From contig CAMCYR010000004.1 in assembly GCA_945885475.1 (NCBI GenBank), forward strand, positions 1 through 64,000: a stretch of 64,000 nucleotides of DNA, in the 5' to 3' direction. Both the position numbers and the translations under genes were made by a program. Origin of the DNA: Chitinophaga pinensis (GTDB lineage: Bacteria > Bacteroidota > Bacteroidia > 2-12-FULL-35-15). Shown here piece after piece: positions 1,370-9,721 of the stretch (positions within the stretch are counted from its first letter, which is position 1; each line of letters starts with the position of its first letter). Below the pieces are notes generated by a model. The model made no database searches. It was not told where the DNA came from and was given only the letters and a program-made list of their open reading frames with translations.

Positions 1370-2035
1370 TTACAAGAAACCTTTAATTATTTTTCTGCAT
1401 TTCCCACACAACTGCTTTTTCTCTTTATCTACATTGCTTATTTTTCCTTCCGCATCTGCCATCAAACATTCATGATTAGTGCAATGATCTAAGTCAAAAT
1501 TATGGCCCATCTCGTGTAAGATGATTTTTGCAAACCGATCTTTTAATTTTGCATTGGAAACACCTTTGCCAATTCGTTTGGTTGAAATTACGCAAGCAGG
1601 TCCCGGTTGCCAGCCCAAACCAAATATTCCCCAATAAGGATTATTTCCCTCCTCCGTACAAATATCTTTTTCAGTAAGTCCTAAAACATATTGAGCGTCT
1701 TTCGGCTTATTTATAAATAAATATTTTAATAATGTGTCAGCAACATATCTATTTCGTTCTTTTACAAAAGCATTTATAGGTAATTCTTTGATGCCACAAT
1801 CAATCGTTTGGATATTGTAAAAACTATCCAGTTGGCTTTGTGCATAATGAAATAGCACTATGTCAAAGCTTCCTAATCTATAAATCGCCACCTTTTTCTT
1901 TGTTGATTTTTTAGGTGTTGGAGCAGCGATTACCTTCTTTATCGGCTGAGCTTTTAATTTCGTTTCATCGTTATCTCGATTGCATGAAAGCAAAACTATT
2001 GAAAGTAGAAAAGGAAAAATAATATATTTTTTCAT
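1370..2035 (-). CDS. Archaemetzincin-like zinc metallopeptidase, lipoprotein
   Basis: 221 residues. An N-terminal signal ends in a lipobox with Cys18 (VLLSC), followed by a basic linker, so the enzyme is predicted to be membrane-anchored outside the cytoplasm. Residues 174-213 carry the archaemetzincin (peptidase M54) signature: HEMGHNFDLDHCTNHEC, then Met192, then 17 residues to Cys210-G-K-Cys213. This is the family spacing HExxH-x5-HC-x4-C-x-M-x17-C-x2-C, with a three-histidine catalytic zinc site (174, 178, 184), Glu175 as base and a second Cys4 structural zinc. The usual Gly in HExxHxxGxxH is Asp181 here. Characterised archaemetzincins are intracellular, so a lipoprotein form is notable. 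The substrate is unknown. Confidence 0.85.
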   Translation of the reverse strand: MKKYIIFPFLLSIVLLSCNRDNDETKLKAQPIKKVIAAPTPKKSTKKKVAIYRLGSFDIVLFHYAQSQLDSFYNIQTIDCGIKELPINAFVKERNRYVADTLLKYLFINKPKDAQYVLGLTEKDICTEEGNNPYWGIFGLGWQPGPACVISTKRIGKGVSNAKLKDRFAKIILHEMGHNFDLDHCTNHECLMADAEGKISNVDKEKKQLCGKCRKIIKGFL

Positions 2036-4685: not shown

Positions 4686-5687
4686 TTAATTTGCTTTGTA
4701 GTTCACTTTTCGTTTCTCTCCTCTTTCTCCAGAAATAATATAATTCACAGAAACACGTTCACCAAGCTTCTTTACGATCTCCGCATTAATTTTAGAAATC
4801 TCTTCATGAATACGCATCGCATGGGGATCGCAAATAAGATTAAGGGTTGAACTTAATTCTTCTACTGTTTTATTGGGCTGAAAACTTTTATACAATTCTA
4901 ATAATCGTTTTTCTTGGCCTAAAATTTCAGCAAAGGTGTAACCATTTTCTGATTCCAGGAACAATTTATAAATCGCTTTTCGGACTGGAGAAAAATTTAA
5001 TTCAATGTTACCATAATCGATTAGTATAAACTTACCTTTTATGATCTCGATTCTACTTAATCTTGTTTCAATTTCCAATCGGTTCCGAAAAAGTAATTGT
5101 TTTCTTAATCCTTCAAAAGCATCTAAAATTTGTCCTAATAATCTTCCATCCAAATGTTCCTTCTGAATATCATCCAAACACTTATCGCAGATATCTCCGG
5201 TACGAAGTTTTAATAGAATTTCTCTTTTATCTGCACAAAGGTCCATGTAGCATCCTAAACTATCATCTTGATGTAAGTGCTCATACATCGTTTCATAATC
5301 TTTATAAATGAAAGATTTAAGGATATTAGAGTATAATAAGTAGGAATCAGGGAATATATTTCCTGCATTGGTATAAATCCCCCAATCCCCACTATGAATT
5401 ATAAAATTGCGATGACCGTCACCATGCGTAAAAAAATTATTAGAAAAACGGGTATTGGTGTACAAACAAAAAAAGTCGGATGAATCAATCTTTTGTTCTT
5501 TACGAAATTTGGTAATAGCATTCATTGCCTTATCGGGAATAATATATCCTTTAGTTATTATGGAATCATCCATAATAGCAGCATGGCACTTAAAACTTAA
5601 TGGACCATCGTAAGCATTTAATAACTCTTCCACCTTTTCAAGTGTTTTCGAATCATAATCTGATGTTCGTGCTAACCAAACTTTCAT
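4686..5687 (-). CDS. Unknown protein with Cys4 zinc-like site; last gene of the deacetylase-fold/vWA operon
   Basis: 333 residues, no signal peptide. Four cysteines spaced C146-x4-C151-x15-C167-x2-C170 (CYMDLC ... DICDKC) look like a structural zinc site. The C-terminal part (about 228-330) has SPVRKAIYKLFLESENGYTF, then a helical stretch ending near NYIISGERGEKRKVNY. From memory, this resembles a C-terminal module found in many uncharacterised Bacteroidota proteins (LFL-x-HPEGI ... YYI-x-G-x-RG). The N-terminal 140 residues are unassigned. The start lies 9 bp after the vWA stop, so the genes are very likely co-transcribed and the proteins may work together. I know of no described function. 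Confidence 0.6.
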   Translation of the reverse strand: MKVWLARTSDYDSKTLEKVEELLNAYDGPLSFKCHAAIMDDSIITKGYIIPDKAMNAITKFRKEQKIDSSDFFCLYTNTRFSNNFFTHGDGHRNFIIHSGDWGIYTNAGNIFPDSYLLYSNILKSFIYKDYETMYEHLHQDDSLGCYMDLCADKREILLKLRTGDICDKCLDDIQKEHLDGRLLGQILDAFEGLRKQLLFRNRLEIETRLSRIEIIKGKFILIDYGNIELNFSPVRKAIYKLFLESENGYTFAEILGQEKRLLELYKSFQPNKTVEELSSTLNLICDPHAMRIHEEISKINAEIVKKLGERVSVNYIISGERGEKRKVNYKAN

Positions 5688-5696
5688 ATTAATCGA

Positions 5697-6302
5697 TTAA
5701 TTAAATTTATTCCAATTTGATTTTTTCTTCGCAAGGTCTTCCAAACTGCTACTCATTTTTGAAAAGGTACCTTTCATTTGGTCTTTTGAAAAAGAGTGAG
5801 CGTTTTCTTTCTTGATGTTCATTTTTTCTGCCACTTCTTTGGCATCTATGATTGCACCTAAAAACAGAAACACATAGCCTTCTTCCTGCATTTCAGAAAT
5901 TAATTTTCTGACACTTTCAAATGTAAACAATTTGGAAGAGTTTTCATACCCATCCGTCAGAATAACAAAAACTACCTTCTTTTTGCCTTGTTTTACATCT
6001 GCGGCAGACATTAATCTTTCTGCTGACCCAATACATCCAATGGCATCGTAAAGAGAGGTATTTCCATTTGGGCTATAATCTTCGGGAGTTAAGTTTCTTA
6101 GATTCATTGGCAACTGCTCCTTACTGATGGTTTTTACATTGTCATTAAAAAAGTGAATGGATGCTTTAAACGATTGCTCTTTTTCCTCTACAGCTAATTT
6201 ACGAAGAGAATTAATTTGCACGTTAATTCCTTCTATTGTTGCTCTTTGGCAATCTGACATTGATCCGCTTTGGTCGATGATGTAGTGATACTGATTTTTC
6301 AT
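5697..6302 (-). CDS. Stand-alone von Willebrand factor A (vWA) domain protein
   Basis: 201 residues, cytoplasmic, essentially one vWA domain. The metal-ion-dependent adhesion site is complete: Asp10-x-Ser12-x-Ser14 (DQSGSMS), Thr82 in NGNTSLYDAI, and Asp117 in VILTDGYENS. Such small vWA proteins bind partners through a divalent metal and often serve as adaptors for chaperone, chelatase or stress proteins (TerY-type, for example). The C-terminal 40 residues are lysine- and serine-rich and may be a flexible tail. The gene lies 21 bp after the deacetylase-fold gene and 9 bp before the Cys4 protein. A metal-dependent partner from the same operon is inferred. Confidence 0.9.
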   Translation of the reverse strand: MKNQYHYIIDQSGSMSDCQRATIEGINVQINSLRKLAVEEKEQSFKASIHFFNDNVKTISKEQLPMNLRNLTPEDYSPNGNTSLYDAIGCIGSAERLMSAADVKQGKKKVVFVILTDGYENSSKLFTFESVRKLISEMQEEGYVFLFLGAIIDAKEVAEKMNIKKENAHSFSKDQMKGTFSKMSSSLEDLAKKKSNWNKFN

Positions 6303-6323
6303 TTTTTTTAGATTTTTTAATTG

Positions 6324-7244
6324 TTAGTTTGAATTTAAAATAGTTTGTTCTTTTGCATTTATAATTCTATTACATGTCAATAAAGATTTTAAATGGAGCT
6401 CTAATACGATGTTGTAATCGTCTGCCCGGTATCCACCAAATAAGCAAAGGACAACAGGTAAAGGTTTACCTAATTTTTTTGATACCTTATTTACCCATTC
6501 AGCAAATACTTCAGCAGCTTTTATCCAACATTCTGTATTAAGCTGGCCACCTAAATCATCGTCTTTATGACTATCGGCTCCGTGAGCAAATACTACATAA
6601 TGTACTTTATTACCAAGAATCATCTCTTCAATACAATCTAAGTGCAGCATAAAGTCATTGATGTAATTCTCATTTAACCCCTTGGGATTAACATTGCATT
6701 TTCGAGGTATCGCTTTTTCCAGGAGTGGATTAAAAGCATATGAATCATCAATACTGTTACCGTAATGCCCATCAAGATCAAAGTAAGCACCAGATAAACC
6801 AAATTCTTCATAAATCTTTATCGCTGAAATAACTTGTCCTGAAAAAGTACAGAACCCAGAACCTGAGCCTGGTGAAGCATGGTGCATGCCCGATATAGGA
6901 GCAAAACACAATTCTCCAGGATTTTGAATAGCATATCTTTTTGCAGCTAATAAAGAGCCTGTCGTATAAGGCAAACTCTTAACCAATTCTTTACTCCAGG
7001 GTAAAGAGTTGCTAGTGTAATTTCCTTCTTTTTTATAAACATTATCGACATATGTTTTTGTATGTGCTAAATAAAAATCTGCTTTATTAATAGGTTCAAA
7101 ATCATCAATAATATCAAAAAACGTATTGTACTCTTCTTTGATCTTTTGCATTAACAACATCGGTTTAAGCGGACTTTTGGAAAAAGAGCTTGTCATGTTG
7201 GTGCACACTTGTTTGGGTGTGTAAAATGTTTTTATTTTATTCAT
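6324..7244 (-). CDS. Histone-deacetylase-fold (arginase-like) zinc hydrolase
   Basis: 306 residues. The motifs of the class I/II histone deacetylase superfamily appear in order: His121-His122 in GMHHASPGSGSGFCTF (charge-relay pair and glycine-rich loop), Asp156-x-Asp158-x-His160 in FDLDGHYGNS (zinc ligands Asp158 and His160), Asp224 in HGADSHKDDDLGG (third zinc ligand), and GGY at 270-272 (transition-state tyrosine). All catalytic residues are kept, so it should be an active zinc-dependent amidohydrolase. Bacterial members act on acetyl-lysine, acetylated polyamines or acetoin-pathway targets; none of those pathways is nearby. It differs from the commonest bacterial HDACs in starting GMHHA instead of PGHHA. 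It sits third in a five-gene operon. Confidence 0.85.
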   Translation of the reverse strand: MNKIKTFYTPKQVCTNMTSSFSKSPLKPMLLMQKIKEEYNTFFDIIDDFEPINKADFYLAHTKTYVDNVYKKEGNYTSNSLPWSKELVKSLPYTTGSLLAAKRYAIQNPGELCFAPISGMHHASPGSGSGFCTFSGQVISAIKIYEEFGLSGAYFDLDGHYGNSIDDSYAFNPLLEKAIPRKCNVNPKGLNENYINDFMLHLDCIEEMILGNKVHYVVFAHGADSHKDDDLGGQLNTECWIKAAEVFAEWVNKVSKKLGKPLPVVLCLFGGYRADDYNIVLELHLKSLLTCNRIINAKEQTILNSN

Positions 7245-7298
7245 TGTTGTTTTTTTAATTTTTTAATTATTTTTAAACGTGGAATCAGTATCTGATTG

Positions 7299-7637
7299 TT
7301 AGTTTACTTTTAGTATGTATAATTCTTTCGGCATTTGTCCCAGATAAACCACTCTTGTTACGTTACACAACCACATTTTTTTAGGATATCCTTTGGGTCC
7401 TTCTACTATATAATCTCCTCCATTTGATAGTTTATTCGGTAATATCAAGGTTGCTTTAATTGCATTAGCCAAAGGTTTTTGGGAGACTTTCACTTTTGCA
7501 TGTTTTCCATCATCAGATAATTTATTTAATAATTTATTTGCTCCTTGCACCATTGATAATGCCGATTTCGGTCCTGGCCATAATTTAAAATCGAAGTACC
7601 AGGTTCCTTTTTCTTTTGTAAATGATAATGTTTTCAT
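7299..7637 (-). CDS. Small DUF6717-like protein, paralogue of its upstream neighbour
   Basis: 112 residues, basic, cytoplasmic. Alone it resembles nothing I can name with certainty, but its layout matches the 146-residue protein encoded just upstream: a GTWYFDF start, a GPKSALSMVQGANK helix, a central strand region, then PKKMWLCNVTRVVYLGQMP matching the neighbour's IWLCPALNLYFQNSP. The two are probably ancient tandem duplicates. The DUF6717 name comes from memory of the neighbour's motif and is tentative. It is 19 bp after that gene and 54 bp before the deacetylase-fold gene. No catalytic motif is visible, so a binding or structural role is likelier than catalysis. Confidence 0.6.
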   Translation of the reverse strand: MKTLSFTKEKGTWYFDFKLWPGPKSALSMVQGANKLLNKLSDDGKHAKVKVSQKPLANAIKATLILPNKLSNGGDYIVEGPKGYPKKMWLCNVTRVVYLGQMPKELYILKVN

Positions 7638-7656
7638 AGTTTTTGTTTTTATTAGA

Positions 7657-8097
7657 TTATATAATAAATGCAGCGTAAATTTTGTCAGGAGAGTTTTGGA
7701 AATATAGATTCAATGCCGGGCACAACCATATTTGATTTACTCCTTGTTTGTTTTTGAAATCGGTTGCTGATGGAATTTCGTATACGCTGCCCATGCCATC
7801 ATGTTTAATAAACTTCAATTCATAATCGAAATCTTTAAATGGAATTACCGAAAAAACCATATTGAATCCCTTTTTACCCTCTTCTAGTTTTTCGATCTTA
7901 TTTAGATGGTAATCAATGAATTTGTCTGCACCGGCAACAAAAGGTTCTTTTGTTAATCCAACTCTGTCATCATCAAATACCCACATGCCTCTGTCGAAGT
8001 ATGGATGAATGACTAAAATGGAATTGGAGGATTCTAGAACTTTACGGCCTTCAATGGCTTCATTGTGTTGGTTCAGTTGTTGGTTTGTTGTTTTCAT
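7657..8097 (-). CDS. DUF6717-like protein, first gene of the deacetylase-fold/vWA operon
   Basis: 146 residues, no signal peptide. The conserved-looking core is SILVIHPYFDRGMWVFDDD followed by VGLTKEPFVAGADKFID, which I associate from memory with DUF6717. The last 40 residues carry NQIWLCPALNLYFQNSPDKIY, the segment shared with the downstream paralogue. Function is unknown. It is the promoter-proximal gene of a run of five on the minus strand (8097 down to 4686) with gaps of 19, 54, 21 and 9 bp. Upstream lie a near-consensus -7 box and a 14-bp palindrome, so the operon may be regulated. Confidence 0.65.
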   Translation of the reverse strand: MKTTNQQLNQHNEAIEGRKVLESSNSILVIHPYFDRGMWVFDDDRVGLTKEPFVAGADKFIDYHLNKIEKLEEGKKGFNMVFSVIPFKDFDYELKFIKHDGMGSVYEIPSATDFKNKQGVNQIWLCPALNLYFQNSPDKIYAAFII

Positions 8098-8124: not shown

Positions 8125-8174
8125 CAAAGGTGCAAGGAACTAGGAAGGTAGAGGGTATGTTGACAAGCTTGTCA
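8125..8174 (-). promoter_or_regulatory. Putative promoter and palindromic operator of the five-gene operon
   Basis: Reading the minus strand, CACCTTTG (8132-8125) differs by one base from the Bacteroidota -7 consensus TAnnTTTG and ends 27 bp before the start codon. No TTG lies at the proper -33 distance. Further upstream, TGACAAGCTTGTCA at 8161-8174 is a perfect 14-bp palindrome, about 30-40 bp before the -7 box, a reasonable place for a regulator. A palindrome of this length is expected a few times by chance in 64 kb, so position is the main support. Confidence 0.35.
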
Positions 8175-8296
8175 GTTTTTACAAATGGGGGGAATTGCAG
8201 CCGAAAAACGAATATTAGCTTCAGTTTAGTTCATCCTGTTTAAATTATGTTATATTTATACTATATCTCAGAGAATTTCCGAAAGGAGTCAAAAAA

Positions 8297-8962
8297 ATGA
8301 ATAAATTAAAGCGAAGTATTATATACGTGTTTTTCATTTGCATGATAGTACTGGTCTTGATATTTCTCAATAGAAGCAGGATTAAAAGATTTGTAAAGCA
8401 TTGTTTGGGTATTACAAAAAATCAGGAATCAGGTACGGGCTCATGTCCAAACTGTATAACTCTTTTTACTGATGATGTTGCAACACAAGCAAAGGCATAT
8501 GCCAATGGTTCTGGGATCGAGCCACAAAAAGATGAAAGCGGTTTAGAGTTATTATGCAAAAAGAAGATTTTAATAAAAATTAGTACAAACAATTATTACA
8601 TTGTTGATGACATGAATTTTTCAAAACCTGTGGTATTACCAAAATGCAAGATTTTTATTGATGATTTAGCTAATTTATATAAAAGTAAATGTGAAAAAAA
8701 TAGAATAAAATATGAGTCTTTCACAATTTCAAGTGCAACTCGATCTTTAAAATCAGTTAAAAAATTAAAGGCGAAAAATAACAATGCAATTAAAAACAGC
8801 GGTCATTTAAAAGGTAAAACATTTGATGTAAGCTATAGAGCATTTAATAATAATTTTAAACAAACTAAATTATTTATTGAATCACTGAAAGAATTAAAAC
8901 AACTAAAAAGATGCTTTGTGAAATATGAAAAAAACGGGTGTTTACACATTACTGTTAATTAA
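8297..8962 (+). CDS. DUF5715 protein (M15-like D,D-peptidase fold), membrane-anchored
   Basis: 221 residues. An N-terminal membrane segment (about 7-24) followed by basic residues indicates an anchor with the rest in the periplasm. Residues 146-180 match DUF5715: SATRSLKSVKKLK, then NNAIKNSGH170LKGKTFD177, and a C-terminal CLH217ITV. The His-x6-Asp...His pattern is the zinc site of M15-type D-alanyl-D-alanine peptidases, so an action on peptidoglycan peptides is likely but not shown. A GSCPNC pair at 49-53 might form a disulfide. It is 21 bp upstream of the GH25 gene on the same strand, which suggests a two-gene murein operon. Confidence 0.75.
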   Translation: MNKLKRSIIYVFFICMIVLVLIFLNRSRIKRFVKHCLGITKNQESGTGSCPNCITLFTDDVATQAKAYANGSGIEPQKDESGLELLCKKKILIKISTNNYYIVDDMNFSKPVVLPKCKIFIDDLANLYKSKCEKNRIKYESFTISSATRSLKSVKKLKAKNNNAIKNSGHLKGKTFDVSYRAFNNNFKQTKLFIESLKELKQLKRCFVKYEKNGCLHITVN

Positions 8963-8983
8963 TCCAACTAAATAGCTATCAAT

Positions 8984-9721
8984 ATGAAAAAAGTAATTTT
9001 TATTAGTATCGTTGCGTTTATAACAGCAACAGTCATTGTATTAAATTTAAATGCATTTCATAGAATAAAATCCAAAGTAATCTCAGTACTTACCGACTCA
9101 GATGAAATAAAAAATAAAAATAAAACGGAGGGAGCTGTTTGGGGAATTGATATTTCCCATCATCAAAGTAAAATTGATTGGGATGTTTTAGTAAAAGAAA
9201 ATAAACCATCTTTTGTCTTTTTAAAGGCAACAGAGGGAACAACAGATACAGACCAGTATTTCGCTGAACGATATAAAAAACTAAAATCTTTGGGTATACC
9301 TACAGGTGCGTATCATTTTTTCACCTATCGAACTGTTGGGGAAACGCAAGCAGCTAATTTTATTAATACCATTACCTTAAATAAAGGAGATTTAATACCA
9401 TCCCTTGATCTTGAATTTACAAACACTAAATTACAATCAACAGAATGGATAATAAAAGAAATTAAATCTTTTTGTACAGAAATTAAATCAAAGTTTGGTT
9501 TTTATCCGATGATATATTGTGAAAATGATTTTGTAGTAAAATACTTAAAGGACCCTTTTTTTAATGATTTTAAATATTGGATTTCTGATTTTTATAGAGA
9601 ACCAAAGTCTGATTACGTGTTTTGGCAATACAAAGTGGGCTATATAAAAGGAATAGGTAGAGTAGATGTGGATGTATTGAAAAAAGGGTTAAAACTATCA
9701 GATTACCAAGTGCCCCTTTAA
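8984..9721 (+). CDS. Glycoside hydrolase family 25 (lysozyme-like), membrane-anchored
   Basis: 245 residues. After an N-terminal hydrophobic anchor (about 4-22) comes a full GH25 domain: WGIDISHHQ (Asp56), FVFLKATEGT, GAYHFFTYR, the catalytic DLE with Asp142 and Glu144 in PSLDLEF, PMIYCENDF, and the C-terminal FWQYKVG with VDVDV. GH25 enzymes cut the MurNAc-GlcNAc bond of peptidoglycan. No cell-wall-binding repeats are present. The pairing with a DUF5715 protein suggests glycan and peptide bonds are handled together. GH25 is frequent in phage, but no phage structural or lysis genes flank it, so a host enzyme is likelier. Confidence 0.92.
   Translation: MKKVIFISIVAFITATVIVLNLNAFHRIKSKVISVLTDSDEIKNKNKTEGAVWGIDISHHQSKIDWDVLVKENKPSFVFLKATEGTTDTDQYFAERYKKLKSLGIPTGAYHFFTYRTVGETQAANFINTITLNKGDLIPSLDLEFTNTKLQSTEWIIKEIKSFCTEIKSKFGFYPMIYCENDFVVKYLKDPFFNDFKYWISDFYREPKSDYVFWQYKVGYIKGIGRVDVDVLKKGLKLSDYQVPL

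Follow-up and report, generated by a model that had tools for sequence, protein, structure and literature searches.

What holds together five consecutive genes of apparently unrelated kinds is the question raised by a stretch of Chitinophaga pinensis DNA of 64,000 nucleotides (GenBank assembly GCA_945885475.1, contig CAMCYR010000004.1, positions 1 to 64,000 of the forward strand; hereafter the window). Open reading frame (ORF) analysis places the five on the minus strand, from 8097 to 4686, with intergenic gaps of 19, 54, 21 and 9 bp. They encode two DUF6717 proteins (A146 and B112), a histone deacetylase (HDAC)-fold enzyme, a vWA protein and an unnamed protein that we call CYS. A first reading of the DNA, made without database searches (the sequence-only reading), described one operon with exactly this spacing, and the coordinates agree. 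It also proposed a fixed, metal-gated deacylase complex of all five products, which is not borne out. We put at roughly one half the probability that the locus is a modular Bacteroidota operon, in which a promoter-switched vWA-CYS regulatory core has recruited phage-type accessories and responds most likely to phage or a related stress.

The vWA-CYS core

The conserved unit is vWA plus CYS, and DUF6717 and HDAC are its recurrent, optional partners. In the fetched neighbourhoods, vWA adjoins CYS in about 25 loci, almost always with vWA first and CYS second on the same strand, at a distance of a few to about 120 bp; the loci span some ten Bacteroidota families, and several of them are closely related, so that independent cases are fewer than the locus counts. 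CYS was matched in 10 of 396 genomes sampled across the phylum by profile search, in 32 of 395 genomes of the class with an improved profile, and in no viral contig in two scans. The sequence-only reading had looked for all five genes in conserved order among distant Bacteroidota; what recurs there is the pair, while the complete order was met in the source genome alone and a relative (L002) retains remnants of it. For vWA-CYS, the repeated adjacency, together with the shared promoter element described below, goes beyond chance; DUF6717 shows both enrichment and adjacency, and HDAC lies beside the pair in two groups of separate origin. Some of the pairs sit amid core genes, as in L146, where an EF-G-like GTPase gene and an SMC-like gene flank the pair (by eye), and thus the pair is not exclusively carried on mobile DNA. 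Insertions were also seen by eye: in L136 a toxin-antitoxin-like pair separates vWA from CYS, and in L040 an IS66-like element lies between the two genes.

The window vWA has a complete metal ion-dependent adhesion site (MIDAS; D10-x-S12-x-S14, T82, D117), as claimed at first reading, and the vWA of L134 is likewise intact, though it was hidden in the first ORF table. Among phages, vWA is present in 8 of 50 records without a consistent operon, and in Myxococcus phage Mx1 (L163) a vWA gene sits among clustered tRNA genes, with SLOG and TROVE/Ro60-like genes nearby. The Ter-type and other vWA adaptors (TerY/TerF; MoxR-vWA; PMC7824862) resemble the window operon in encoding a small MIDAS-bearing vWA beside a cysteine-rich partner, whereas the partner here, CYS, belongs to a different, unnamed family. 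No Ter family (TerB/C/D, TelA) was detected with Pfam in the operon and four neighbouring proteins, nor as a recurrent neighbour cluster, though not every neighbour was scanned. A MoxR AAA+ ATPase was likewise absent from the scanned window neighbours and from the recurrent neighbour clusters of the fetched loci. The Ter analogy drawn at first reading has consequently been dropped, as ter genes were not seen.

CYS matches no family above threshold in Pfam, NCBIfam, PHROG or PADLOC. The window protein does have four cysteines (C146, C151, C167 and C170) and no known family, in line with its earlier description as a Cys4 protein, but the conserved set is a different one. Across 38 homologous N-terminal domains, G145, C146, D149, C167 and C170 are invariant, whereas H139 is kept in 36 and C151 in 31; because of this difference, a metal-type site made of H139, C146, C167 and C170 appears more likely than a Cys4 site. 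The company kept by the N-terminal domain is that of immune proteins. It is fused to a CAP12/Pycsar-type TIR in L160 and L162, follows TIR_2 beside patatin and ThsB-type genes in L161, lies near ThsB-TIR and SLATT genes in L043, and is joined to a C-terminal hydrophobic segment in L044 and L045. In addition, one vWA-DUF6717-CYS locus adjoins the defence genes ZacB/ZacC. From such company, the domain may be a sensor or adaptor in bacterial immunity. The window operon nevertheless differs from effectors of the TIR, CBASS, Pycsar and Thoeris types, to which the domain is fused or adjacent elsewhere, in that Pfam and PADLOC scans found no TIR effector, nucleotide cyclase or patatin among its five proteins.

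By eye, the C-terminal domain of CYS resembles a winged helix. We also considered CYS as a degenerate archaemetzincin (M54), the structural zinc site of which resembles the CYS spacing C-x4-C ... C-x2-C. This was rejected: the collinear profile alignment is non-significant (hhalign P 0.012, probability 3.5%), and the HExxH active site of archaemetzincins is absent from CYS. An archaemetzincin gene lies a few genes from the operon (Table 1).

A palindromic promoter element

A palindrome of the TTTGCAAGCTTGCAAA type lies 50-70 bp upstream of vWA-CYS operons. This sequence or its variants precede vWA in most operons: of 28 loci, 19 or more each score at p<0.0025 when compared with base-shuffled sequence. 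The shuffles preserved nothing beyond base composition, and some of the same loci had supplied the scoring consensus. The exact form TKRCAAGCTTGYMA has a single copy in the source genome (G000), at the window operon, and TGACAAGCTTGTCA has been kept upstream in the relatives L002 and L003 despite changed flanks. The 29 genomes that contain CYS hold 18 sites of the exact pattern, 10 of them at vWA-CYS loci; the remaining sites match chance, for which the rate is about 0.2 per genome. Most of the remaining sites that were inspected fall within unrelated genes, though one perfect copy, in G116, is intergenic. Phage loci with HDAC or DUF6717 and TIR-type CYS loci, 1.09 Mb in all, contained no copy. 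In the literature, the palindrome strings were met only in seemingly unrelated papers, mostly work on Toll-like receptor (TLR) oligonucleotides among the matches listed.

The position of the element relative to the promoter is also conserved. In 20 of 24 loci, a distance of 37-39 bp separates the palindrome centre from the TTTG of a Bacteroidota -7 box downstream of it; most of these loci have no TTG at the usual -33 position, and the window operon has none there either. Such geometry is that expected of an activator replacing the -33 contact, with a repressor as the alternative. In all three loci where HDAC (L134, L137) or DUF6717 (L133) starts divergently within about 100 bp, a second, mirrored -7 box occurs at the same spacing on the other side of the palindrome. 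The background for a mirrored box is 2.5%; among 20 other loci only L138 has one, before another divergent gene, and L006 and L007, in which HDAC lies farther off, have none. The mirrored boxes are our best evidence that accessory genes may be co-regulated with vWA-CYS.

The HDAC and its recruitment

The window HDAC is a classical Zn2+ deacylase (PF00850) both by domain match and by a complete His pair, Asp/His/Asp zinc ligands and Tyr. These residues (H121/H122, D158, H160, D224 and Y272) are conserved across a subfamily of 55 members, and the enzyme is therefore complete, as first described. The subfamily is marked by the signatures FCTFSGQ, GADSH and FGGYR and by SG(M/F)HH in place of RPP before the His pair, and the best profile matches in the PDB, 9gz5 and 9gkv, are both named histone deacetylase. 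Members occur in 47 viral contigs (L054-L100), many of them of 100-480 kb, with up to 78% identity in the viral scan, and metagenomic phages of 636-735 kb are among the viral records that have names. Their neighbours include phage-type exonucleases, endolysins and helicases. In several of the contigs the neighbourhood is conserved, with a RecB-like exonuclease alongside. No description of this large-phage subfamily was found in the searched literature, and its existence raises the question of which host acyl modification large phages remove.

The cluster-5/class-IV-like enzymes share the fold family and all catalytic residues of the window HDAC, which itself falls in a separate, phage-dominated subfamily. 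One of them, VcHdaH, carries an SGGYHH motif and is a de-decanoylase (PMC11532494). The window enzyme has PISGMHH and FGGY, similar to the cluster-5 motifs SGGYHH and GGGY (the tree did not include VcHdaH), and since its SG(M/F)HH motif resembles that of VcHdaH, it is possible by analogy that it acts on a long-acyl substrate. The viral acetylpolyamine amidohydrolases, reported in a virosphere survey solely from Imitervirales (PMC9992855), are also virus-linked members of the superfamily; the subfamily described here is distinct in sequence and is found in tailed phages and Bacteroidota.

Phylogenetically, the subfamily is split from generic Bacteroidota HDACs at 100/100. The clade of the window HDAC branches from within viral sequences (100/99) and is separate from that of L004, L006, L007, L134 and L137, and a single clade for all HDACs associated with vWA-CYS is rejected by the approximately unbiased (AU) test (p=3e-7). 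It follows that the association of HDAC with vWA-CYS arose at least twice, or that HDAC was exchanged with phages during the association. In L004, L006 and L007, relatives found via HDAC similarity, the gene is divergent to the vWA-CYS pair, and in two further genomes with CYS (G611 and G748) an HDAC of this subfamily is again adjacent and divergent. Recruitment of HDAC to vWA-CYS has thus been repeated. Because phage-type HDAC is not significantly enriched in CYS-containing genomes (p=0.13), the link rests on adjacency and promoter geometry.

The enzyme is under purifying selection, with ratios of nonsynonymous to synonymous substitution (dN/dS) of 0.10-0.20. This includes the comparison of L002 with L003. 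The former has HDAC, a remnant of A146 and a truncated vWA that degenerates after about 30 aa; the latter has A146 and HDAC only. Since HDAC is maintained in relatives without vWA-CYS beside it, an obligate complex is argued against. In a genome of the same genus (G027, locus L047), a distant phage-type HDAC lies beside a LexA-like repressor (by eye), without vWA-CYS.

The DUF6717 pair

Both members of the pair recognized at first reading exceed the DUF6717 cut-off of 27 bits, and all four Pfam-assigned operon proteins are above their Pfam cut-offs (Table 1). The divergent paralogue A146 has an 88% identical, intact copy in L003 (dN/dS 0.13). DUF6717 occurs in 6 of 28 other genomes with CYS, and in five of those six its distance to CYS or vWA is about 1 kb or less. 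When the source genome is counted, it is found in 7 of 29 genomes with CYS against 3 of about 386 without (p=4e-7; p=1e-4 by genus), p-values that are approximate because the two samples were drawn differently. The AlphaFold2 (AF2) model of B112 is confident, with a predicted local distance difference test (pLDDT) score of 93; its one confident match is a Cellulophaga phage protein, and no PDB fold matched at E<=0.001. No paper mentioning DUF6717 was found.

DUF6717 is present in 50 viral contigs, in some of which it adjoins genes for an RNA ligase, a metallophosphoesterase or vWA. Ten of these phage loci (L245 and L247-L255) hold a PF09414 RNA ligase, and L244 and L249 have metallophosphoesterase neighbours. 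We regard a connection to RNA repair as a lead, noting that the phages concerned may be related. The Prevotella plasmid pE2-28 (L165) carries a run of ADP-ribosylglycohydrolase, NUDIX, DUF6717 and two DUF1810 genes, and DUF1810 is also found near the L137 operon. The notion that phages carry HDAC and DUF6717 together as one module was discarded, as DUF6717 is in none of 47 HDAC-bearing viral records.

A proposed mechanism and its alternatives

We propose that vWA and CYS would be made from a dedicated promoter with one palindromic site of activator or repressor type, and that accessories have repeatedly been placed under this site, either downstream in one transcript, as in the window, or divergently through a mirrored -7 box, as in relatives. 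The zinc-type N-terminal domain of CYS might sense a signal, most likely produced by phage infection or a related stress, and CYS or a partner could then act at the palindrome through the winged-helix-like C-terminal domain. Through its MIDAS, vWA may contact either CYS or a target in a Mg2+-dependent manner. The output of HDAC would be removal of acyl groups from a protein or small molecule, and the enzyme could also work alone. Given, among other findings, that phages carry members of three of the four families, a phage- or stress-responsive vWA-CYS module with accessories under its control is a plausible reading, and the window operon might plausibly serve in defence. The earlier idea of a "system" thus survives in part, as a vWA-CYS core that has a promoter switch of its own and phage-type accessories that can be exchanged, and fails as a fixed five-part complex.

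Several results weigh against this modular reading. Most genomes with vWA-CYS are without HDAC and DUF6717, and the two were never found together in one phage record. Several vWA-CYS pairs have ordinary chromosomal surroundings, outside defence islands. L002 and L003 retain HDAC and the palindrome without an intact vWA-CYS beside HDAC, an observation at the level of the locus only, as the full genomes were not searched for CYS. Finally, the C-terminal domain of CYS had no Pfam helix-turn-helix (HTH) match in 12 members even at E<5, and the AF2 model of CYS, built from four sequences, was poor (pLDDT 46) and was not used.

It is possible, at odds well short of even, that the operon is an anti-phage system in the strict sense, where vWA-CYS would sense infection, the accessories would be effectors or counter phage modification, and HDAC would have been domesticated from phages. 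The TIR, SLATT and patatin contexts of the CYS N-terminal domain, the phage affinity of HDAC and DUF6717 and the locus beside ZacB/ZacC all favour this. However, the core-gene surroundings in several genomes do not, PADLOC had no match among the five window proteins, and no toxic effector was identified in the operon. Rather doubtful is a general stress or metal/redox module, in which the HCCC site of CYS would sense metal or oxidation, vWA-CYS would control its own promoter and HDAC would adjust protein acylation. This fits the conserved H/C/C/C set, an operator essentially confined to the vWA-CYS operon and the vertical-looking retention in some families, but it leaves unexplained the phage-type accessories and the presence of the CYS N-terminal domain with TIR effectors. 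We consider unlikely the bolder proposal of an operator-defined, immune-type regulon, whereby vWA-CYS would detect phage, activate its own promoter and deploy HDAC and DUF6717, both domesticated large-phage proteins, as outputs, while large phages would turn the same enzyme family on their hosts.

It is improbable that HDAC and DUF6717 are phage-derived passengers that lie beside vWA-CYS by chance. Both families are mobile and phage-linked, and HDAC persists without vWA-CYS and lacks significant enrichment across genomes, but repeated adjacency and mirrored -7 boxes on a shared operator are hard to obtain by chance. The obligate five-part complex of the sequence-only reading, for all its single operon and intact metal sites, is very improbable, because the full set was seen in one genome only, most vWA-CYS genomes are missing HDAC and DUF6717, and sister genomes lose parts independently.

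Returning to the modular operon, no described system tested or found has its gene set or promoter, and its biochemical function may prove familiar. The locus joins in one picture a vWA adaptor, an unnamed family with a link to TIR-type immune proteins, a deacylase subfamily of large phages and a promoter element that vWA-CYS operons carry in many Bacteroidota families. The promoter element offers a handle, in that it predicts which genes belong together.

Features and surroundings of the operon

Table 1. Coordinates and supporting evidence for the operon, its promoter and nearby features of the window.
Feature	Position	Strand	Evidence or remark
A146: DUF6717, divergent paralogue, 146 aa	7657..8097	-	Pfam PF20475, 39.5 bits
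B112: DUF6717, canonical form, 112 aa	7299..7637	-	Pfam PF20475, 79.5 bits
HDAC-fold zinc deacylase, large-phage subfamily, 306 aa	6324..7244	-	PF00850 Hist_deacetyl, 72.9 bits; tree, AU test
vWA protein, intact MIDAS, 201 aa	5697..6302	-	Pfam VWA, 27.5 bits; phrog_7371, E 9e-34
CYS: unnamed protein, 333 aa; N-terminal H-C-C-C domain, putative C-terminal winged-helix-like domain	4686..5687	-	profile matches, alignment
Palindromic promoter element CTGACAAGCTTGTCAA; perfect 14-bp palindrome TGACAAGCTTGTCA at 8161-8174	8160..8175	-	62 bp upstream of first gene
Bacteroidota -7-like box CACCTTTG	8125..8132	-	its TTTG 39 bp downstream of palindrome centre
Archaemetzincin (M54)	1370-2035	-	PF07998, 44 bits; HEMGHNFDLDHC
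DUF5715 and GH25 lysozyme genes	8297-9721	+	
Very large ORF, 4319 aa	50719-63678	-	

The DUF5715 and GH25 genes are divergent from the operon, and their G+C content of 0.28-0.29 is below that of the operon genes.

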